Assembly (NCBI GenBank): GCA_018715525.1
Contig: DVLL01000010.1
Coordinates: forward strand, 1 to 64,000
Direction of reading: 5' to 3'
Length of the DNA stretch: 64,000 bases
Source of the DNA: Candidatus Faeciplasma pullistercoris
GTDB lineage: Bacteria; Bacillota; Clostridia; Oscillospirales; Ruminococcaceae
A program made the translations under genes and the position numbers. Positions 4,460 to 9,588 of this stretch are shown here, in pieces; position 1 is the first letter of the stretch, and the number at the start of each line of letters is the position of its first letter. The notes under the pieces were generated by a model that had not been told where the DNA came from, ran no database searches, and was given only the letters and a program-made list of their open reading frames with translations.

Positions 4460-4897
4460 ATGAGGATACTGGCCGTTGATTACGGAGAAGCGAGGACGGG
4501 ACTCGCGTGCTGCGACGCGTACGAGTCGATAGCCTCGCCGGTGGGAACGGTATGCGAGTGGAACCGTGACGCCTGCGCGGCAAAAATTGCCGCTAAGGCG
4601 GCTGAGCTTGGCACCGAGCTGATAGTAGTCGGCTTGCCGGTGAATATGGACGGGAGCTGCGGAGAGCGTGCGAAAAGGTGCGAGGAGTTTGCGGCTTCGC
4701 TTAGGGAACTGACCGGTCTTGAGGTGGAACTGTGGGACGAACGGGTGACTACCGTTCAGGCGATAGGTATTTTGAACGAGACCAATGTTCGCGGCAAGAA
4801 GAGAAAGGCGGTCATAGATACCGTCGCGGCGACCCTGATACTTGAAAGCTACCTGAGCTACCGAAAGAAAAAGTCGGGCAGCAAGCAGCAGGTATAA
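4460..4897 (+). CDS. ruvX: Holliday junction resolvase-like RNase H-fold protein RuvX/YqgF
   Basis: 145-residue RNase H-like nuclease implicated in pre-16S rRNA 5' end maturation and/or Holliday junction resolution. Motifs: VDYGEARTG with Asp7 at the start, GLPVNMDGSCGERA in the middle, WDERVTT, and DTVAATLILESYL at the end. ATG 4460 is preferred over an upstream in-frame ATG at 4424, because GAGGGTG lies just before it and homology begins there. It overlaps nothing and ends in front of a strong terminator. A DUF1292 gene sits nearby on the other strand, a neighbour pairing also seen in Bacillus (yrrK-yrzB). Confidence 0.9.
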   Translation: MRILAVDYGEARTGLACCDAYESIASPVGTVCEWNRDACAAKIAAKAAELGTELIVVGLPVNMDGSCGERAKRCEEFAASLRELTGLEVELWDERVTTVQAIGILNETNVRGKKRKAVIDTVAATLILESYLSYRKKKSGSKQQV

Positions 4898-4913
4898 TTA
4901 TTTCCAGACAAAC

Positions 4914-4960
4914 AATAAACCGTTTGCAACCTTTTCAAGTAAGGTTGCAAACGGTTTTGC
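4914..4960. terminator. bidirectional intrinsic terminator
   Basis: The long stem AAACCGTTTGCAACCTT (4917-4933) pairs with AAGGTTGCAAACGGTTT (4941-4957). It is flanked by A/T tracts on both sides, so it can serve both ruvX (+) and the minus-strand small RNA. Confidence 0.85.
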
Positions 4961-5111
4961 TGTTAAAAGAACTCCGCCTTGTCGCCACATGCGTATAAAA
5001 CCCGCTGTTAAGCAGGGTGGGTAAATTGTCCCGAATGTTTCGCGCTCCCTTCGTCCGCCATAGGCGGGAGGTCTGCAATCCGCGCCCGGAGAACAATTCC
5101 CTTTTAAGAAG
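4917..5111 (-). ncRNA. small structured RNA transcription unit, 6S RNA-like
   Basis: A minus-strand promoter (TTGCTC/TATAAT) and the bidirectional terminator bracket about 195 nt without a gene. The RNA would fold as a long rod: GGGAATTGT near its 5' side (5093-5101 on +) pairs with ACAATT-ta-CCC (5019-5029 on +). Inside are a CGCC-tat-GGCG hairpin (about 5057-5067) and a CCC/GGGT hairpin around 5000-5021. Size, an internally open rod and free-standing transcription all fit 6S RNA (ssrS), the RNA polymerase decoy. I recognise the layout but not an exact consensus. The transcript is better supported than the identity. Confidence 0.5.
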
Positions 5112-5117
5112 TGTAGG

Positions 5118-5145
5118 ATTATATCAAACATGCTTAATCGAGCAA
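5118..5145 (-). promoter_or_regulatory. putative promoter of the 6S-like RNA
   Basis: On the minus strand TTGCTC (5140-5145) and TATAAT (5118-5123) are spaced by 16 bp. The site points into the gene-free stretch ending at the bidirectional terminator. Confidence 0.55.
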
Positions 5146-5291
5146 GGCAGAATTAGATTTTACTTTATCGAGTGCATAACGCAGCTTTTGTACTGCGAGA
5201 TTATTATATCCCCGCGCAAAGAATTTATGCCGAAAATTTCAGGCTACTCGCGCGAGCGGGTGTAAGTGTAAAGCGAAAATTCGGCAGCAAC

Positions 5292-5639
5292 TCAGCTCGG
5301 ATCGCGCTCGCTGATATCGTCGTCCTCTTCTTCGCCGTCGTCATCGCCGTCGTAGTAATCTTCAAGCCGGGACATGAAGATTTCGCCGATCCTGTCGTAC
5401 TCATCGTCGTCATCGATGGTGACAAGCATTTCCTCGCCGTCGGAATAGTCAGACTTGAGAATTACTAGCTCTCCGCTGTCCGAGATTATGTCGGTGGGAT
5501 TATCGTAGTAGGGGACCATGGCGTAATATTTGTTGTCTCCCTCTTCGTAGTAGTCGATAAGTTCAAAGGTCTGCTCTTTGCCGTCCTCATCGCTCAAGGT
5601 ATATAGGTCGGGAGTATAGTCCATATCGTCCATTCTCAT
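5292..5639 (-). CDS. DUF1292 family protein
   Basis: 115-residue, very acidic protein of the DUF1292 (YrzB) family, function unknown. It opens MRMDDMDYTPDLYTL, then has the family core (DEDGKEQTFELIDYYE... YYAMVPY), and ends in an extreme Asp/Glu tail (DDDGEEEDDD). The start follows GAGAGGAGC at good distance. It is transcribed away from the large RNA region to its right. A second DUF1292 gene occurs at 18416. Confidence 0.82.
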   Translation of the reverse strand: MRMDDMDYTPDLYTLSDEDGKEQTFELIDYYEEGDNKYYAMVPYYDNPTDIISDSGELVILKSDYSDGEEMLVTIDDDDEYDRIGEIFMSRLEDYYDGDDDGEEEDDDISERDPS

Positions 5640-5766
5640 TTTTAGCTCCTCTCTCGGCTGATCTCTTTGTCCGATGTAATTATAATGTATTTTTGAGTTA
5701 AAGTCAACATCAAACAGGTAAAGATATATATAAATAAAAAAATTAGAAAAAAGTTTTTAAAAGGTA

Positions 5767-5795
5767 TTGACATTGCACAAAACATGTGCTATATT
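5767..5795 (+). promoter_or_regulatory. strong promoter of the giant RNA
   Basis: A perfect TTGACA (5767-5772), 17-bp spacer and TATATT (5790-5795) with a TGC extension upstream of the -10. It sits in very AT-rich DNA. It is among the best sigma-A promoters in the window, yet no gene follows for 2.8 kb. Confidence 0.85.
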
Positions 5796-6443
5796 ATAGT
5801 TGACAAAAGAAAAGAGAAGTCGAGGAAAATAAAAAAGGAGAGGGTTCCGATGTACAGGTAAGTCTGAGGATAAAGACTCCAACAGCAGTCGGCAGATGAT
5901 GACCGGTGAGTAACATAATGATGCTTTTCAAAAAGCTGAAGTCTTTGGCTTAACGCAAGTCTGAACTTGCTTAGCGAAAGCGGTGAATTTCAGAAAATGC
6001 AAAGCAAAAGATGAGGCGAGCAAGGATAGCATGATTAGTTACACATAGTAAGCAAAAAGGATGGATGATTGTTATGAGGGCTGCCAGAAGCGGAATTTGT
6101 TAACAAAAATCCAACAATAGAAAGGTGTGAGTCCGGCATTCTGTGCATAGAAGAAGTTTCTAAGCCTCCGGTAAACCGACCAGACCTGATACATTTTGAG
6201 GTGTTTCTCAGCAGGGATTGAGTCCCACTTGTTTGAAACAGGCTGAAAGGTGTAGGTCAAAGACCTATTAAAGCTGGTTAAAGGCAATAAAGAAACTGAC
6301 TGAAAAATTTACGATCCGAGTCGAATGACTTTACAGGGATTGTTCCCTGAGAAAGTTTCTCGGAGCCTATAAAGACCCTAAGGGGTGATTCCCCGAACGG
6401 TAATAATCGCTGAACGAAATTTTAAATCCAAGGAGTAAAATCC

Positions 6444-7364
6444 AAGGAGGATATATCCCAATGAAGCTATTCAGAAGATGTATGGAAATCTGAGGTGAAG
6501 GGGTGAGTCCGACAAAGACTTTAGCTTTGGCTTAAATATCTGACTGTAGGGTTACAGGCTGGTTTAAGCGTTGATAAAGAAACTGTATAGAGACCGGATG
6601 CTTGGAAATAAGCGGACGGCTTAAGGATAGACAAATAAACGCAAAGGATTGAGTCCCATGAAGCTGACAGAGGAATCCGGTATAATCTGAAGCGAAGCGA
6701 AAAGCTTCGGCGACAAAAGACTTTAGACTTTATAGATCACGGTTCTGTAGAGGTACAGCGTGACCAATAGCTTAAATTAACTGCTCAAGAGTTAATCTCG
6801 GTGCAGTTAACAGAAGAAGAGCAAAATCAAGTAAAGGATTGAGTCCGATGAAAATCGCGGTAATGTCAGATTAGATCTGATATTCGTCAAAACTGGATGT
6901 TAGGTCATGAGCTAACATGATTCTGTAGAGGTACAGCTTGCTTAGCGGCTTGGCTTACGACAAAATGTTTGCGAAAAGGGTTGATTCCGATGATTGTATT
7001 CAGGATAACTGGTAGAATCTAAAGCGAAAGGGTGAGTCCGACAAAGACTTTAGTTTAGTTCACATGACAAAAACCTGACAAATCTCCGTAAAAGCATATC
7101 CAAAGCCCAAGGCGAGGAGAATGCGGTTCACGGCAAGCATAAAGCAAGAGCACAGTTAGCCTTTTGGCGAGTTATACTACATGCTGATGCAAATTTCAGG
7201 TATGTGTCAAACGACAGGATTAAAGATTTGTGTGCCTTTAAGGCATGATATGGATTAAGGTTTATTCGGTAATACAGATATAGAGGATATGATTCCCATG
7301 AAAATATTCAGAAGGTATATCAAAACCTGAATGGTAGGGGTGAGTCCAAAGAAGAGTTTAGCTT
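6444..7364 (+). repeat. tandem RNA modules inside the giant RNA
   Basis: Modules begin AAGGAT-TGAGTCC(C/G)-ATGAA and continue with a (T)TCAGA/TCTGA(A) stem. In the fuller copies they then have a second AAGGGG-TGAGTCC element and an AGTC/GACT hairpin. Copies start at 6444, 6643, 6833, 6975 and 7282. The 24 bases at 6501-6524 and 7030-7053 are identical. From the ATG to the TCTGA (or equivalent) is exactly 33 nt in all five copies, although the sequences in between differ. The stem is kept by changed base pairs: in the 7282 copy ATTCAG/CTGAAT replaces TCAGA/TCTGA. Confidence 0.75.
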
Positions 7365-8270
7365 AACACATCGGTGTTATATGCCATGAGTATCGACAAG
7401 ACGCCGTAGGGTGTCGCTAAGATGCAAAGAAGCAGTAAGACATCAGATGTACGAATCAAATAATAAGTCGTGTTTGAAGAAAACAGAAATTCAATACTTG
7501 ATTCATCTGTGTGATGTTTTCAAGAAATTAATCAGGAGCAGATAATTGCAAATGGTAGTTGAAGAAACTAATCAGTAATGGCGGGCATTCGCCGTAAGGT
7601 GTGTGTCCGCCGTATTGACTCCTCTGCTGAGACAAATGCAATTAGGACGAGGGCTGATTCATAGGATCATGTTCTGGTGATAGGATTTTTGATAGCTTAT
7701 TCGTTCGTCGCCTGAATCTTGAGAACCCAAGTTACAAAGAACCGTTGTTTGTTCAAGTTTATACATCGTGTATCTACGAGAGCAAGAGCTTGAATTTAAT
7801 AGCGACAGCTATTTGACCCAACCTCACGGCAAGCGAACTGTTGACACATGTTTATAGTCGGATTGTGTTGATCCGGCGGAGAACAACGCAGGAAAGCCTG
7901 AGCGAATACAGCCGTCTTGAAGATTAGCGAGTAAACAATTTTCATGGATGAAGTATTTCGGCTTTTCGGTGAAAGCAGCAAACGCCGAAAACGATGTTGA
8001 GGATAGCTTCTTTTGAAGCCTCCCGTCCATGTGATTCTCGGAAGGGAAGTCAAGAGTGTGTTCACAGCGGATCTTCCCGTTGATTCGAGAAGAGCATTTA
8101 AGTGATAATGTCCTCAATGTGTGCTTTCATATGACGCAGCTTCCTGAGCGGCTCCCGGGTAGTTCTTGGGAGATGGGTATTCGAGCCAGTCCGGGCAAAG
8201 TCACGGCTGAAAGTGGATTGAATAGGCTGCCTTCAGTAAAGCACGAAGGTCTTATAAATTATATAAATTC

Positions 8271-8305
8271 AGGGGAGCGAGTCAAATCGCTCCCCTTTGG
8301 TTTTT
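8271..8305 (+). terminator. terminator of the giant RNA
   Basis: Perfect stem AGGGGAGCGA (8271-8280) / TCGCTCCCCT (8287-8296), 6-nt loop, followed by TTGGTTTTT. Confidence 0.88.
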
Positions 8306-8561
8306 GTAAGACCGATTATATGTAACCTCCGGCAGCGCCCCGGCATAAAATAAACTAACGGCAGGCAGTCTGCTTTAGAAAATGCATTGAGGGGATATGC
8401 AGACATCACCGAGCCGTTTTTATATATAGCCGTCACAGAAATATCTTTGGCGGCGTTTTGGTGTTGGGAGAAAAATTATCTGTTATGCAGACTGTAGCTA
8501 AAGCGGGTCAAGTGAGAAAATTGTTTAGTAAATATTTCGCCGGAATTTGAGCTTTTCGGGC

Positions 8562-8590
8562 TTGCATAGCAATTTTATTTGGAGTATAAT
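8562..8590 (+). promoter_or_regulatory. promoter of rpe
   Basis: TTGCAT (8562-8567), 17-bp spacer, TATAAT (8585-8590), 31 bp before the rpe start. The 250 bp between the giant RNA terminator and this promoter hold nothing else I can name. Confidence 0.75.
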
Positions 8591-8621
8591 TACCGTGAAT
8601 AGTTATAAGGAGAGAAATAAA

Positions 8622-9269
8622 ATGAACATACTTATCAGTTCTTCTATCCTTTCCGCTGATTTTGGCTTTCTGTCCGCTGAGCTTGACCGCTCCATTGACG
8701 CCGGCTGCGATCTTATACATTTTGACGTAATGGACGGACATTTTGTACCAAACCTGAGCTATGGAGTCCCTGTGCTAAAGTCTCTGAAAAAATATTCGAG
8801 GCTTCCCATGGATGTCCATCTTATGATAACCAACCCGCTCGAGTATATAGATAAGTTTGCCGATGCCGGGGCGGATATAATTACCTTCCACGCCGAGGCA
8901 AACGGCAACCCGGAAGAAATAATAGAGAAAATTCACTCCCGAGGTATCAAGGCTGGCGTATCCGTTAAGCCCAAGACTCCGGTGTCGGTGATTTATCCGT
9001 ATCTGGACAAGCTTGACATGGTGCTTGTGATGACGGTTGAGCCCGGCTTTGGCGGTCAGGGCTTCATGTATGACATGCTTCCAAAAATAAAGGAGCTCAG
9101 GAATAAGCTTGATTCCATGGGGCTTGCAACTGATATAGAGGTAGACGGAGGAATAACGGACAGCACGGCTCCGCTGGTAAAGGAAGCGGGAGCAAACGTA
9201 CTTGTTTCCGGCTCATATCTTTATAAAGCCGAGAATATGGCTCAAAACGTCAAAAAGCTTCGTGGATAG
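8622..9269 (+). CDS. rpe: ribulose-phosphate 3-epimerase
   Basis: Interconverts D-ribulose 5-phosphate and D-xylulose 5-phosphate in the pentose phosphate pathway; cytoplasmic (beta/alpha)8 barrel. 215 aa, normal length. Motifs: SSSILSADF near the N-terminus, HFDVMDGHFVPN with metal-binding His/Asp, HLMITNP, the signature MTVEPGFGGQ, and EVDGGI with the second catalytic Asp. The start ATG follows AAGGAGAG. It has its own promoter and appears monocistronic. The pentose role fits the xylan-degrading GH8 enzyme at 18.7 kb. Confidence 0.95.
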   Translation: MNILISSSILSADFGFLSAELDRSIDAGCDLIHFDVMDGHFVPNLSYGVPVLKSLKKYSRLPMDVHLMITNPLEYIDKFADAGADIITFHAEANGNPEEIIEKIHSRGIKAGVSVKPKTPVSVIYPYLDKLDMVLVMTVEPGFGGQGFMYDMLPKIKELRNKLDSMGLATDIEVDGGITDSTAPLVKEAGANVLVSGSYLYKAENMAQNVKKLRG

Positions 9270-9588
9270 AAGAGCTATACATAATCTCTCCATGCTCGCA
9301 GAAAAGCCGTTTGTAGTCTTTTCCTATGAATACCCGCTCCGAATGCTCACATATCAGCGGAAGCAGGGGAGGGACGGCTCGTGTGGGAATTGACGTGCAA
9401 AGATAGTAAAGGCCTCCGAGCTTGACTTGCGCTTGGACGTACTTGGAAAGAATAGTTACAAGATTTTTGAGCTCGTTCATGGTGGACGCACAGCAGCATA
9501 GATCCATTATTGCGGGCCAAGCCGCAAGCCTGACCCTTTTTTGGGGTGGGATGCCCGAGGGTTCGGATACTTCGGAAATAAATATCAC
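9250..9588 (-). CDS. unrecognised small protein, uncertain
   Basis: 112 codons on the minus strand with a good ribosome site (GGAAGGGTG before the ATG). Its end overlaps the rpe 3' end by 20 bp in convergent orientation. The protein is cysteine-rich in places (DLCCCAST, ICEHSERVF, FCEHGEIMY), with two CEH triplets about 20 residues apart, which could bind metal. I do not recognise a family. The 375 bp between rpe and the Rnf-like genes hold nothing else obvious, so either this gene or an untranslated spacer fills it. Confidence 0.4.
   Translation of the reverse strand: MIFISEVSEPSGIPPQKRVRLAAWPAIMDLCCCASTMNELKNLVTILSKYVQAQVKLGGLYYLCTSIPTRAVPPLLPLICEHSERVFIGKDYKRLFCEHGEIMYSSSIHEAF

Follow-up and report, generated by a model that had tools for sequence, protein, structure and literature searches.

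What kind of gene fills 2.5 kb between a strong promoter and an intrinsic terminator when no ordinary protein-coding gene can be recognised there? The question is raised by positions 5767–8305 of a 64,000-nucleotide (nt) stretch of DNA, hereafter the window, from Candidatus Faeciplasma pullistercoris, an uncultured relative of Ruminococcus (family Ruminococcaceae; contig DVLL01000010.1), which an analysis of the window alone (the sequence-only reading) had put forward as a candidate giant, structured non-coding RNA, perhaps of a new class. Comparison with homologous loci upholds a conserved, stand-alone RNA gene, but neither a non-coding nature nor giant size survives as a defining feature: the homologues unexpectedly hold intact open reading frames (ORFs) of about 2–16 codons, which the sequence-only reading had itself named as evidence against its proposal. 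The explanation that we consider best overall, with a probability of about 0.5, is a free-standing, terminated RNA that carries an array of mini-ORFs and would be built to engage ribosomes.

The strong promoter and closing terminator proposed for the locus both stand, each being recovered by a scan (Table 1). In positions 4500–9500 these scans gave 10 consensus promoters against 8.5 expected (sd 2.7), a number not above chance, and 9 terminator-like sites against 4.8. The window promoter is credible because a promoter-like match is found no more than 560 nt from the start of the divergent gene at 86 of 103 homologous loci; this gene we take to be a YrzB-like DUF1292 gene. No gene could be recognised on either strand of the intervening stretch, as had been claimed: its longest ORF of at least 50 amino acids (aa) has 97 aa, and a Pfam search of six open frames returned nothing up to E = 0.1. 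The window stretch does contain reading frames of 3–10 codons with ribosome-binding sites (RBSs). The locus is single copy in its genome by blastn.

Known RNA families were considered and rejected. No family of Rfam 15 reached its gathering score in 5767–8305 (best sub-threshold E = 1.5), 16 homologous loci gave only 6S RNA, and the covariance models of OLE, GOLLD and ROOL, families included in Rfam, were unmatched in the window stretch and in 16 homologous loci. ARAGORN found no transfer-messenger RNA in the window and placed its three tRNAs elsewhere. The recurring hairpin elements that had been described were confirmed by repeat families, and the repeats within the stretch include an 80-nt and a 31-nt element. 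All three parts of the stretch fold better than 20 dinucleotide shuffles each (z = −4.0 for 5803–6700, −7.2 for 6700–7619 and −2.7 for 7620–8300); folding is thus strongest in the middle and not over the last 400 nt, for which nested multi-helix folds had been described.

The search of relatives suggested as a check in the original proposal did find homologues. Of 99 relatives searched by blastn, 21 gave a match, and all but one of the 21 are from the window's genus (20 of its 31 genomes, the window's own included). The match to one close relative (G012) spans the full length at 94%; in the rest only short pieces match, for the most part towards the 5' end. The position of the RNA locus is constant in relatives, with transcription away from the DUF1292 gene, and the locus is present in two genomes (G010 and G022) despite the lack of a blastn match. 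A ribulose-phosphate 3-epimerase gene follows downstream in 13 of the 20 relatives fetched, and in 11 of these 13 the intergenic region is 1.0–1.4 kb, as against 3 kb in the window. Four relatives (G003, G005, G008 and G015) keep the array, and no epimerase gene was found in the stretch fetched from them.

We used the DUF1292 gene, present in 181 of 197 sampled genomes of the window's family, as the locus marker. Divergent flanks were fetched for 103 loci, of which 81 are in genomes from 58 other genera and 22 in genomes of the window's genus; the outside loci were a non-random choice, with top-scoring DUF1292-positive genomes first and some weaker ones added, and nine same-genus genomes without a blastn match lie outside the set. 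The genus has 17 named records, which are metagenome-assembled genomes; three carry the label Ruminococcus sp., and the rest are listed as Oscillospiraceae or Clostridia bacterium. A transcript was called where a promoter-like match, at the distance given above, was accompanied by a called terminator, which was so at 79 loci (22 from the genus and 57 from outside; 79,782 nt). The terminator caller overruns some loci, carrying the window transcript to about 8461 and that of G003 beyond its 408 nt, and three transcripts (G128, G207 and G211) are miscalled overruns into genes with open frames of 260–522 aa; such overruns dilute, and do not create, the enrichments reported below. Giant size is not supported as a trait of the class. 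The median transcript is 862 nt, 75 of the 79 lie within 0.4–1.7 kb (at most 1719 nt), some relatives have a transcript of only about 400 nt with no epimerase gene found behind it, and the four longer ones are the window, G012 and two overruns into genes. The 2.5-kb length is special to the window's lineage. The 3' region that lacks array units has a full-length match only in G012, and positions 7400–8260, searched in 197 genomes, gave beyond the window itself only two matches of 29 and 22 nt, the latter in what appears by eye to be a phosphate-permease gene and perhaps due to chance.

ATG-initiated ORFs led by a Shine–Dalgarno (SD) sequence numbered 491 in the 79 transcripts against 241 in shuffles. 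They are in excess at 2–3 codons (157 against 30.6 expected) and at 9–15 codons (155 against 54), with smaller peaks at 18 codons (19 against 5) and 21 codons (15 against 3.8), and show no excess at 4–8 codons (53 against 57). In what we call class A units, a mini-hairpin of the form GGx-loop-yCC lies over the SD sequence, 0–2 nt before the ATG, mostly with 1–4 codons behind it. We counted 254 instances of the pattern GG-N4..8-CC-N0..2-ATG, where shuffles gave 26.5 on average and never more than 41 in 30 rounds. At 156 such sites with ORFs of up to four codons, the third pair of the hairpin is A-T in 60, T-A in 19 and G-T in 16. The second codon of SD-led dipeptide ORFs is mixed (Lys 19, Ala 15, Tyr 10, Cys 8, Glu 8 and others).

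Class B units are ORFs of about 9–16 codons in which the 14 nt before the ATG pair with codons 2–10. Pairing with the unit's own arm scored 12.58, against 11.66 with swapped arms (sd 0.18; 153 sites, nested starts not always removed; z = 5.0), and 96 longer ORFs had no excess of start-region pairing (z = −1.6). For start-site hairpins, the predicted pairing is shown to be better than in controls. A class V motif follows within 32 nt of the class B ORF in 91 of the 153 cases. Class V, GTG-AGT-CCN and close variants without an ATG, has 133 sites in 66 transcripts, and its frame closes in 4–12 codons at 94 of 116 distinct sites. A shift of the frame by two lowers this number to 33 of 116, and a shift by one mostly brings a stop inside the motif itself. 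This early closure speaks against a non-coding RNA, as do the synonymous codon changes of the compact forms described below. The second base of the V start is T at 130 of 135 sites, as against 76 of 98 where an ATG follows. V sites lie no more than 25 nt past the stop of an SD-led ORF of 6–25 codons in 77 of 133 cases and exactly 9–10 nt past an SD-led ORF stop in 44 of 133 (33 genomes), whereas the same motif with an ATG gave five distances of 9–10 nt.

Per transcript, a median of six units was counted, an upper count that includes chance SD-led ORFs, and unit number and ORF type vary widely between genera. At two loci (L136 and L148, in G186 and G261) class A and class V elements alternate in tandem at a regular spacing of about 54 nt, likely the result of a recent amplification of units.

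Controls set these units apart from background. ORFs of up to 25 codons led by an A hairpin, together with V ORFs, number 364 in the 79 transcripts, compared with 23 in shuffles, 12 on the reverse complement and 11 in the 65 kb just downstream. Taken singly, 70 of the 79 transcripts exceed all 50 of their own shuffles (48 of the 70 come from 35 genera other than the window's) and 68 have at least three A or V units (46 outside the genus, in 32 genera); the window itself has 10, against at most four in 50 shuffles. A general RBS style of the lineage was rejected as the source of the hairpins, since only one of 38 SD-led ordinary gene starts in the window, a small control, carries a class A hairpin. 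Decay of a phage or a former gene was likewise rejected, given an ordered architecture that exceeds shuffles in 35 genera outside the window's own. The comparison shows that the predicted gene, with its promoter, terminator, unit types, starts and early stops, recurs across many genera of the family.

Which of its features selection maintains was examined in 23 genome pairs, with strict unit definitions that exclude out-of-frame overlaps such as MHHETV... (asterisks below mark stop codons). Divergence per site was 0.203 in spacers and 0.098 in the 15 nt before kept starts. It was 0.074, 0.112 and 0.149 at codon positions 1, 2 and 3 of class B, 0.062, 0.117 and 0.124 at those of class V and 0.047–0.094 in class A. 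Class C, the longer ORFs behind class A hairpins, diverged at 0.166–0.198, hardly slower than spacers, and 21 of its 22 starts were re-found in the partner genome. Of the other classes, A had 42 of its 49 starts re-found, B 32 of 41 and V 32 of 39, with the same ORF length in 39, 23 and 24 of these, respectively. Synonymous and nonsynonymous codon changes stood at 19:41 in B, 6:22 in V, 0:9 in A and 14:69 in C. Certain residues are nevertheless kept through different codons: Arg-Ser (Asn in some) in the window's genus, through AGA/CGC/CGT and AGC/AGT/TCN, and a C-terminal L-N-I* that several genera share although their codons for Leu, Asn and Ile differ. The C-termini R-P-D-I* and K-E-[YF]-[ED]-[FI]* recur in fewer genera than L-N-I*. 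The geometry of starts and stops thus appears to be under selection, while the peptide sequence is under clear selection in places only and weakly conserved in the pooled pairs. This difference leads us to rank ribosome engagement above a function of the peptides, although it is not decisive.

In the compact forms of about 400 nt, units make up most of the conserved sequence, and purifying selection on the peptides is clear. Six aligned compact homologues share MKR*, MKLARSWI*, VSPAY[SN]*, M[NY]VNKHKIL* and a last ORF VNPMNRC...*, although two of them lack the stop that ends the first ORF after its three codons. Across the five ORFs, variation affects 18 of 93 codon columns, 11 of which are third positions; of the 13 codons that vary, 8 do so synonymously. 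In the spacers, 79 of 103 columns are variable. The MYR* unit of the window has the orthologues MKR*, MKN*, MRN* and MKM*.

From these patterns we infer that ribosomes start and stop at array units, and the locus is probably a translated mini-ORF array. One terminated transcript would offer serial, hairpin-bearing translation starts, each with a near-immediate stop codon, and ribosomes might cycle through starting, reading a few codons, stopping and re-starting at the V site 9–10 nt on, the start-site hairpins and the fixed step from stop to V letting the reading of one unit feed the next. With a strong conserved promoter and many units, such an RNA could act as a sink that holds or cycles ribosomes, and its amount would tune, or report on, the pool of free ribosomes. 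Capture over peptide production is favoured by dipeptide ORFs that end in many different residues, by a variable number of units and by weakly constrained peptides, yet that capture is the function of the array is a tentative proposal. About equally tentative is a dedicated ribosome-decoy RNA, a translational counterpart of 6S RNA consisting of arrayed, hairpin-gated minigenes with an evolving number of units, in at least one family, and probably a second, of one order.

Several observations weigh against ribosome engagement. Of the 103 loci, 24 lack a recognised promoter or terminator, and nine of the 79 transcripts are not above their shuffles (G101, G128, G135, G141, G151, G175, G182, G207 and G211, three of which are the miscalls mentioned above). 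ATG-stop pairs, the shortest conceivable units, are without excess (17 against 14.8 expected). In the class A third pair T-T is the second commonest combination (35), and the covariation seen on A/T combinations (Fisher p = 1.1e-4) is weak on distinct sites (p = 0.049). Many homologues fold only modestly better than shuffles (median z −1.95, n = 44, with four values not below zero). Because divergence in RBSs and ORFs was measured on units with kept starts only, its low values are flattering. V sites have, by eye, no well-placed SD sequence of their own, and we infer that initiation there must be by re-start after the preceding ORF. Some peptides, moreover, are kept beyond what simple capture would need, namely the R-S of the window's genus and the C-terminal L-N-I*, and the largely synonymous codon changes of the compact forms point the same way.

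These last observations suit the main competing explanation, a polycistronic mRNA for micropeptides (signals, antimicrobials or small-molecule-sensing arrest peptides), which would be a bacterial counterpart of the tal/pri gene of flies. The third-position and synonymous bias in the compact forms and the kept Arg-Ser/Asn, L-N-I*, R-P-D-I* and K-E-[YF]-[ED]-[FI]* residues all speak for it. We nevertheless consider it unlikely, because a large class of units encodes dipeptides or tripeptides without a common residue, the ratios of synonymous to nonsynonymous changes in B and C are near what we estimate for drift, and ORF number and type depend strongly on genus. Improbable, in our judgement, is an untranslated structured RNA, an OLE- or ROOL-like scaffold whose SD-like hairpins would be protein-binding or structural elements. 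The folding of the window stretch, the z-scores of its homologues (40 of 44 below zero and 22 below −2) and the partly compensating third pair of the tiny hairpins would all fit a scaffold, but the starts, the early closing of the frame and the places of the stops are preserved in the way that translation would need, and spacers are the least conserved part, also in the compact forms (79/103 spacer against 18/93 ORF columns variable).

Long untranslated RNAs require protection from Rho, and the mini-ORFs might be road-blocks of ribosomes that act only in cis, against Rho or a ribonuclease, with the function residing elsewhere in the RNA. A six-codon mini-ORF is reported to shield its transcript from RNase E, and two-codon ones are suggested to do likewise (PMC8708949). 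Nothing outside the units, however, shows comparable conservation: spacers diverge at 0.203 and kept A, B and V units at 0.05–0.15, and units are most of what the compact forms conserve. Road-blocks alone seem improbable. A cis-acting leader of the downstream gene, an attenuator or upstream ORF (uORF), would explain mini-ORFs and hairpins, which are typical of leaders, as well as the epimerase gene that comes next in 13 of 20 relatives. It is nonetheless very improbable, since an intrinsic terminator closes the transcript at 79 of 103 loci (three miscalled) and the downstream gene changes, with the array kept in the four relatives whose fetched stretch showed no epimerase gene.

The closest known systems are bacterial minigenes, such as those of the LEE1 leader and the axe-txe operon, which likewise consist of an SD sequence, an ATG, one or two sense codons and a stop; lambda bar is reportedly a further two-codon example. 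The array shares with them the few-codon ORF behind a strong SD sequence, as the 157 ORFs of 2–3 codons against 30.6 expected indicate, but apparently not the action in cis, since a terminator was called before the next gene at most loci and the neighbour is not constant. As described in PMC8708949, very short ORFs with a strong SD sequence lead to re-initiation of ribosomes or to drop-off of peptidyl-tRNA, their over-expression can stop growth, two-codon minigenes regulate neighbouring genes in cis, and the minigenes known are single or paired, in cis to a gene or over-expressed in trans. Early drop-off is likewise reported in PMC10192219. Unlike the known minigenes, the units studied here are arrayed in large number in a terminated RNA that stands on its own and also carries hairpins at its starts and two other types of unit. 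Motifs with uORFs or small ORFs (sORFs), among them the odc1 motif and ilvB, also combine a short conserved ORF with a structured RBS, but those shown in the surveys are mostly single ORFs in gene leaders, and no array was seen among them (PMC8632094, PMC11109978, PMC6429828). The term Ruminococc* is missing from these three main texts, the supplements being outside the search. No comparable mini-ORF array was found described in the literature within our reach, which excluded supplements and many subscription papers; together with the lack of an Rfam match this leaves the earlier proposal of a new RNA class standing, with the amendment that the RNA is full of tiny reading frames.

Other long or multi-ORF RNAs resemble the array in part. 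OLE, GOLLD and ROOL are long structured RNAs of unknown function; the array RNA differs in having no Rfam match and in that its conserved units are translation starts with ORFs. The Drosophila gene tarsal-less/polished rice was likewise considered non-coding at first; its single transcript holds several related ORFs of about 11 codons, and their peptides are strongly conserved. The array, unlike that eukaryotic gene, has mostly weakly conserved peptides, many of 2–3 codons, and bacterial SD hairpins. 6S RNA mimics an open promoter for RNA polymerase, whereas the array RNA would mimic ribosome start sites; the likeness lies in the proposed decoy logic alone, and no sequence relation was found. 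ORFs of 2–14 codons are usually ignored by gene finders, and motifs that contain ORFs are set aside in RNA surveys, a double blind spot through which a class of genes of both natures could escape either. If ribosomes use the sites, the array would offer a natural, tractable system for very early termination, re-start after a stop and control of ribosome supply by RNA; if the peptides matter instead, it would be a bacterial transcript devoted to micropeptides.

Within our sampling, the array RNA appears to be confined to the window's family and, probably, one other family in that order. The strict pattern GGNGTGAGTCCNATG occurs in 26 of 197 family genomes at 38 places, against three with the reversed control, and 27 of the 38 adjoin DUF1292. 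At class level it occurs in 11 of 291 genomes against two in the control, near background; ten of the 11 places were read and gave one array, in the window's own family, and three lone mini-ORFs. Of 136 DUF1292-positive genomes at order level, 27 loci were examined, three of them from the window's family. In one other family (f24), a promoter-like match and one or more class A elements were present at all seven loci, of which G266 alone was read through by eye. The array was not seen at 17 loci of other families (four read by eye, one of the loci incomplete); eight of these have isolated class A matches, which we take for chance, including three of family f18 with 4–5 each and no promoter-like match. 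Lone class A mini-ORFs, MF*, MTK* and MSE*, are found at about position 1503 on the reverse strand of loci L216, L218 and L219. These belong to distant families, some lie behind promoter-like sequence, and they are perhaps single leader minigenes.

Table 1. Positions in the window of the array units, of the signals that bound the locus and of its neighbours (asterisk, stop codon).
Feature	Position	Strand	Remarks
6S RNA	4967–5156	−	RF00013, 49.8 bits against a cut-off of 46.4; adjoins DUF1292 gene
Divergent gene, DUF1292 marker	5292–5639	−	syntenic marker for finding homologues
Promoter TTGACA-17-TATATT, extended −10 (TG)	5767–5795	+	consensus scan; counterpart at 86/103 homologous loci
Class A unit, hairpin GGAGAGGGTTCC over SD, then ATG TAC AGG TAA (MYR*)	5837–5861	+	
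Class B mini-ORF MRAARSGIC*	6074–6103	+	R-S/N core common to genus
Class V mini-ORF GTG AGT CCG... (VSPAFCA*)	6127–6150	+	
Mini-ORF MKLFRRCMEI*, SD hairpin GGATATATCC	6461–6493	+	
Class V mini-ORF VSPTKTLALA*	6503–6535	+	9 nt behind previous stop codon
Mini-ORF MKLTEESGII*, SD hairpin GGATTGAGTCC	6658–6690	+	
Spacer hairpin CACGGTTCTGTAGAGGTACAGCGTG	6738–6762	+	second copy 6916–6940 (repeat family D7)
Mini-ORF MKIAVMSD*, SD hairpin GGATTGAGTCC	6848–6874	+	
Mini-ORF MIVFRITGRI*, SD hairpin GGGTTGATTCC	6990–7022	+	
Class V mini-ORF VSPTKTLV*	7032–7058	+	9 nt behind previous stop codon
Mini-ORF MKIFRRYIKT*, SD hairpin GGATATGATTCC	7298–7330	+	
Class V mini-ORF VSPKKSLA*	7340–7366	+	9 nt behind previous stop codon
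Degenerate V-like element GGTGTGTGTCCGCCG	7594–7612	+	repeat families D3, D6; read by eye
3' region without array units	7620–8265	+	full-length match only in G012; modestly structured, z −2.7
Intrinsic terminator, 10-bp stem and T-rich tail	8271–8296	+	terminator scan

The 6S RNA gene beside DUF1292 recurs in 5 of 16 homologous stretches, where it is the sole Rfam family matched. It was also found near DUF1292 in families without the array (7 of 9 loci searched), and we therefore do not count the neighbourhood, which is probably older than the array, as evidence for a role shared by the two RNAs. At three loci of family f16 (L186, L187 and L188) RNase P RNA (RF00010, 206–250 bits) lies divergent from DUF1292, at about 970–1361 on the reverse strand; the site divergent from DUF1292 hosts unrelated RNA genes in different families. 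Far upstream, positions 12–1003 of the window hold an array of the CRISPR (clustered regularly interspaced short palindromic repeats) type, with 15 copies of the repeat GTCGCTCCCCCTGCGGGGAGCGTGGATTGAAAT at a spacing of 66–69 nt, which we take to resemble type I-C repeats.

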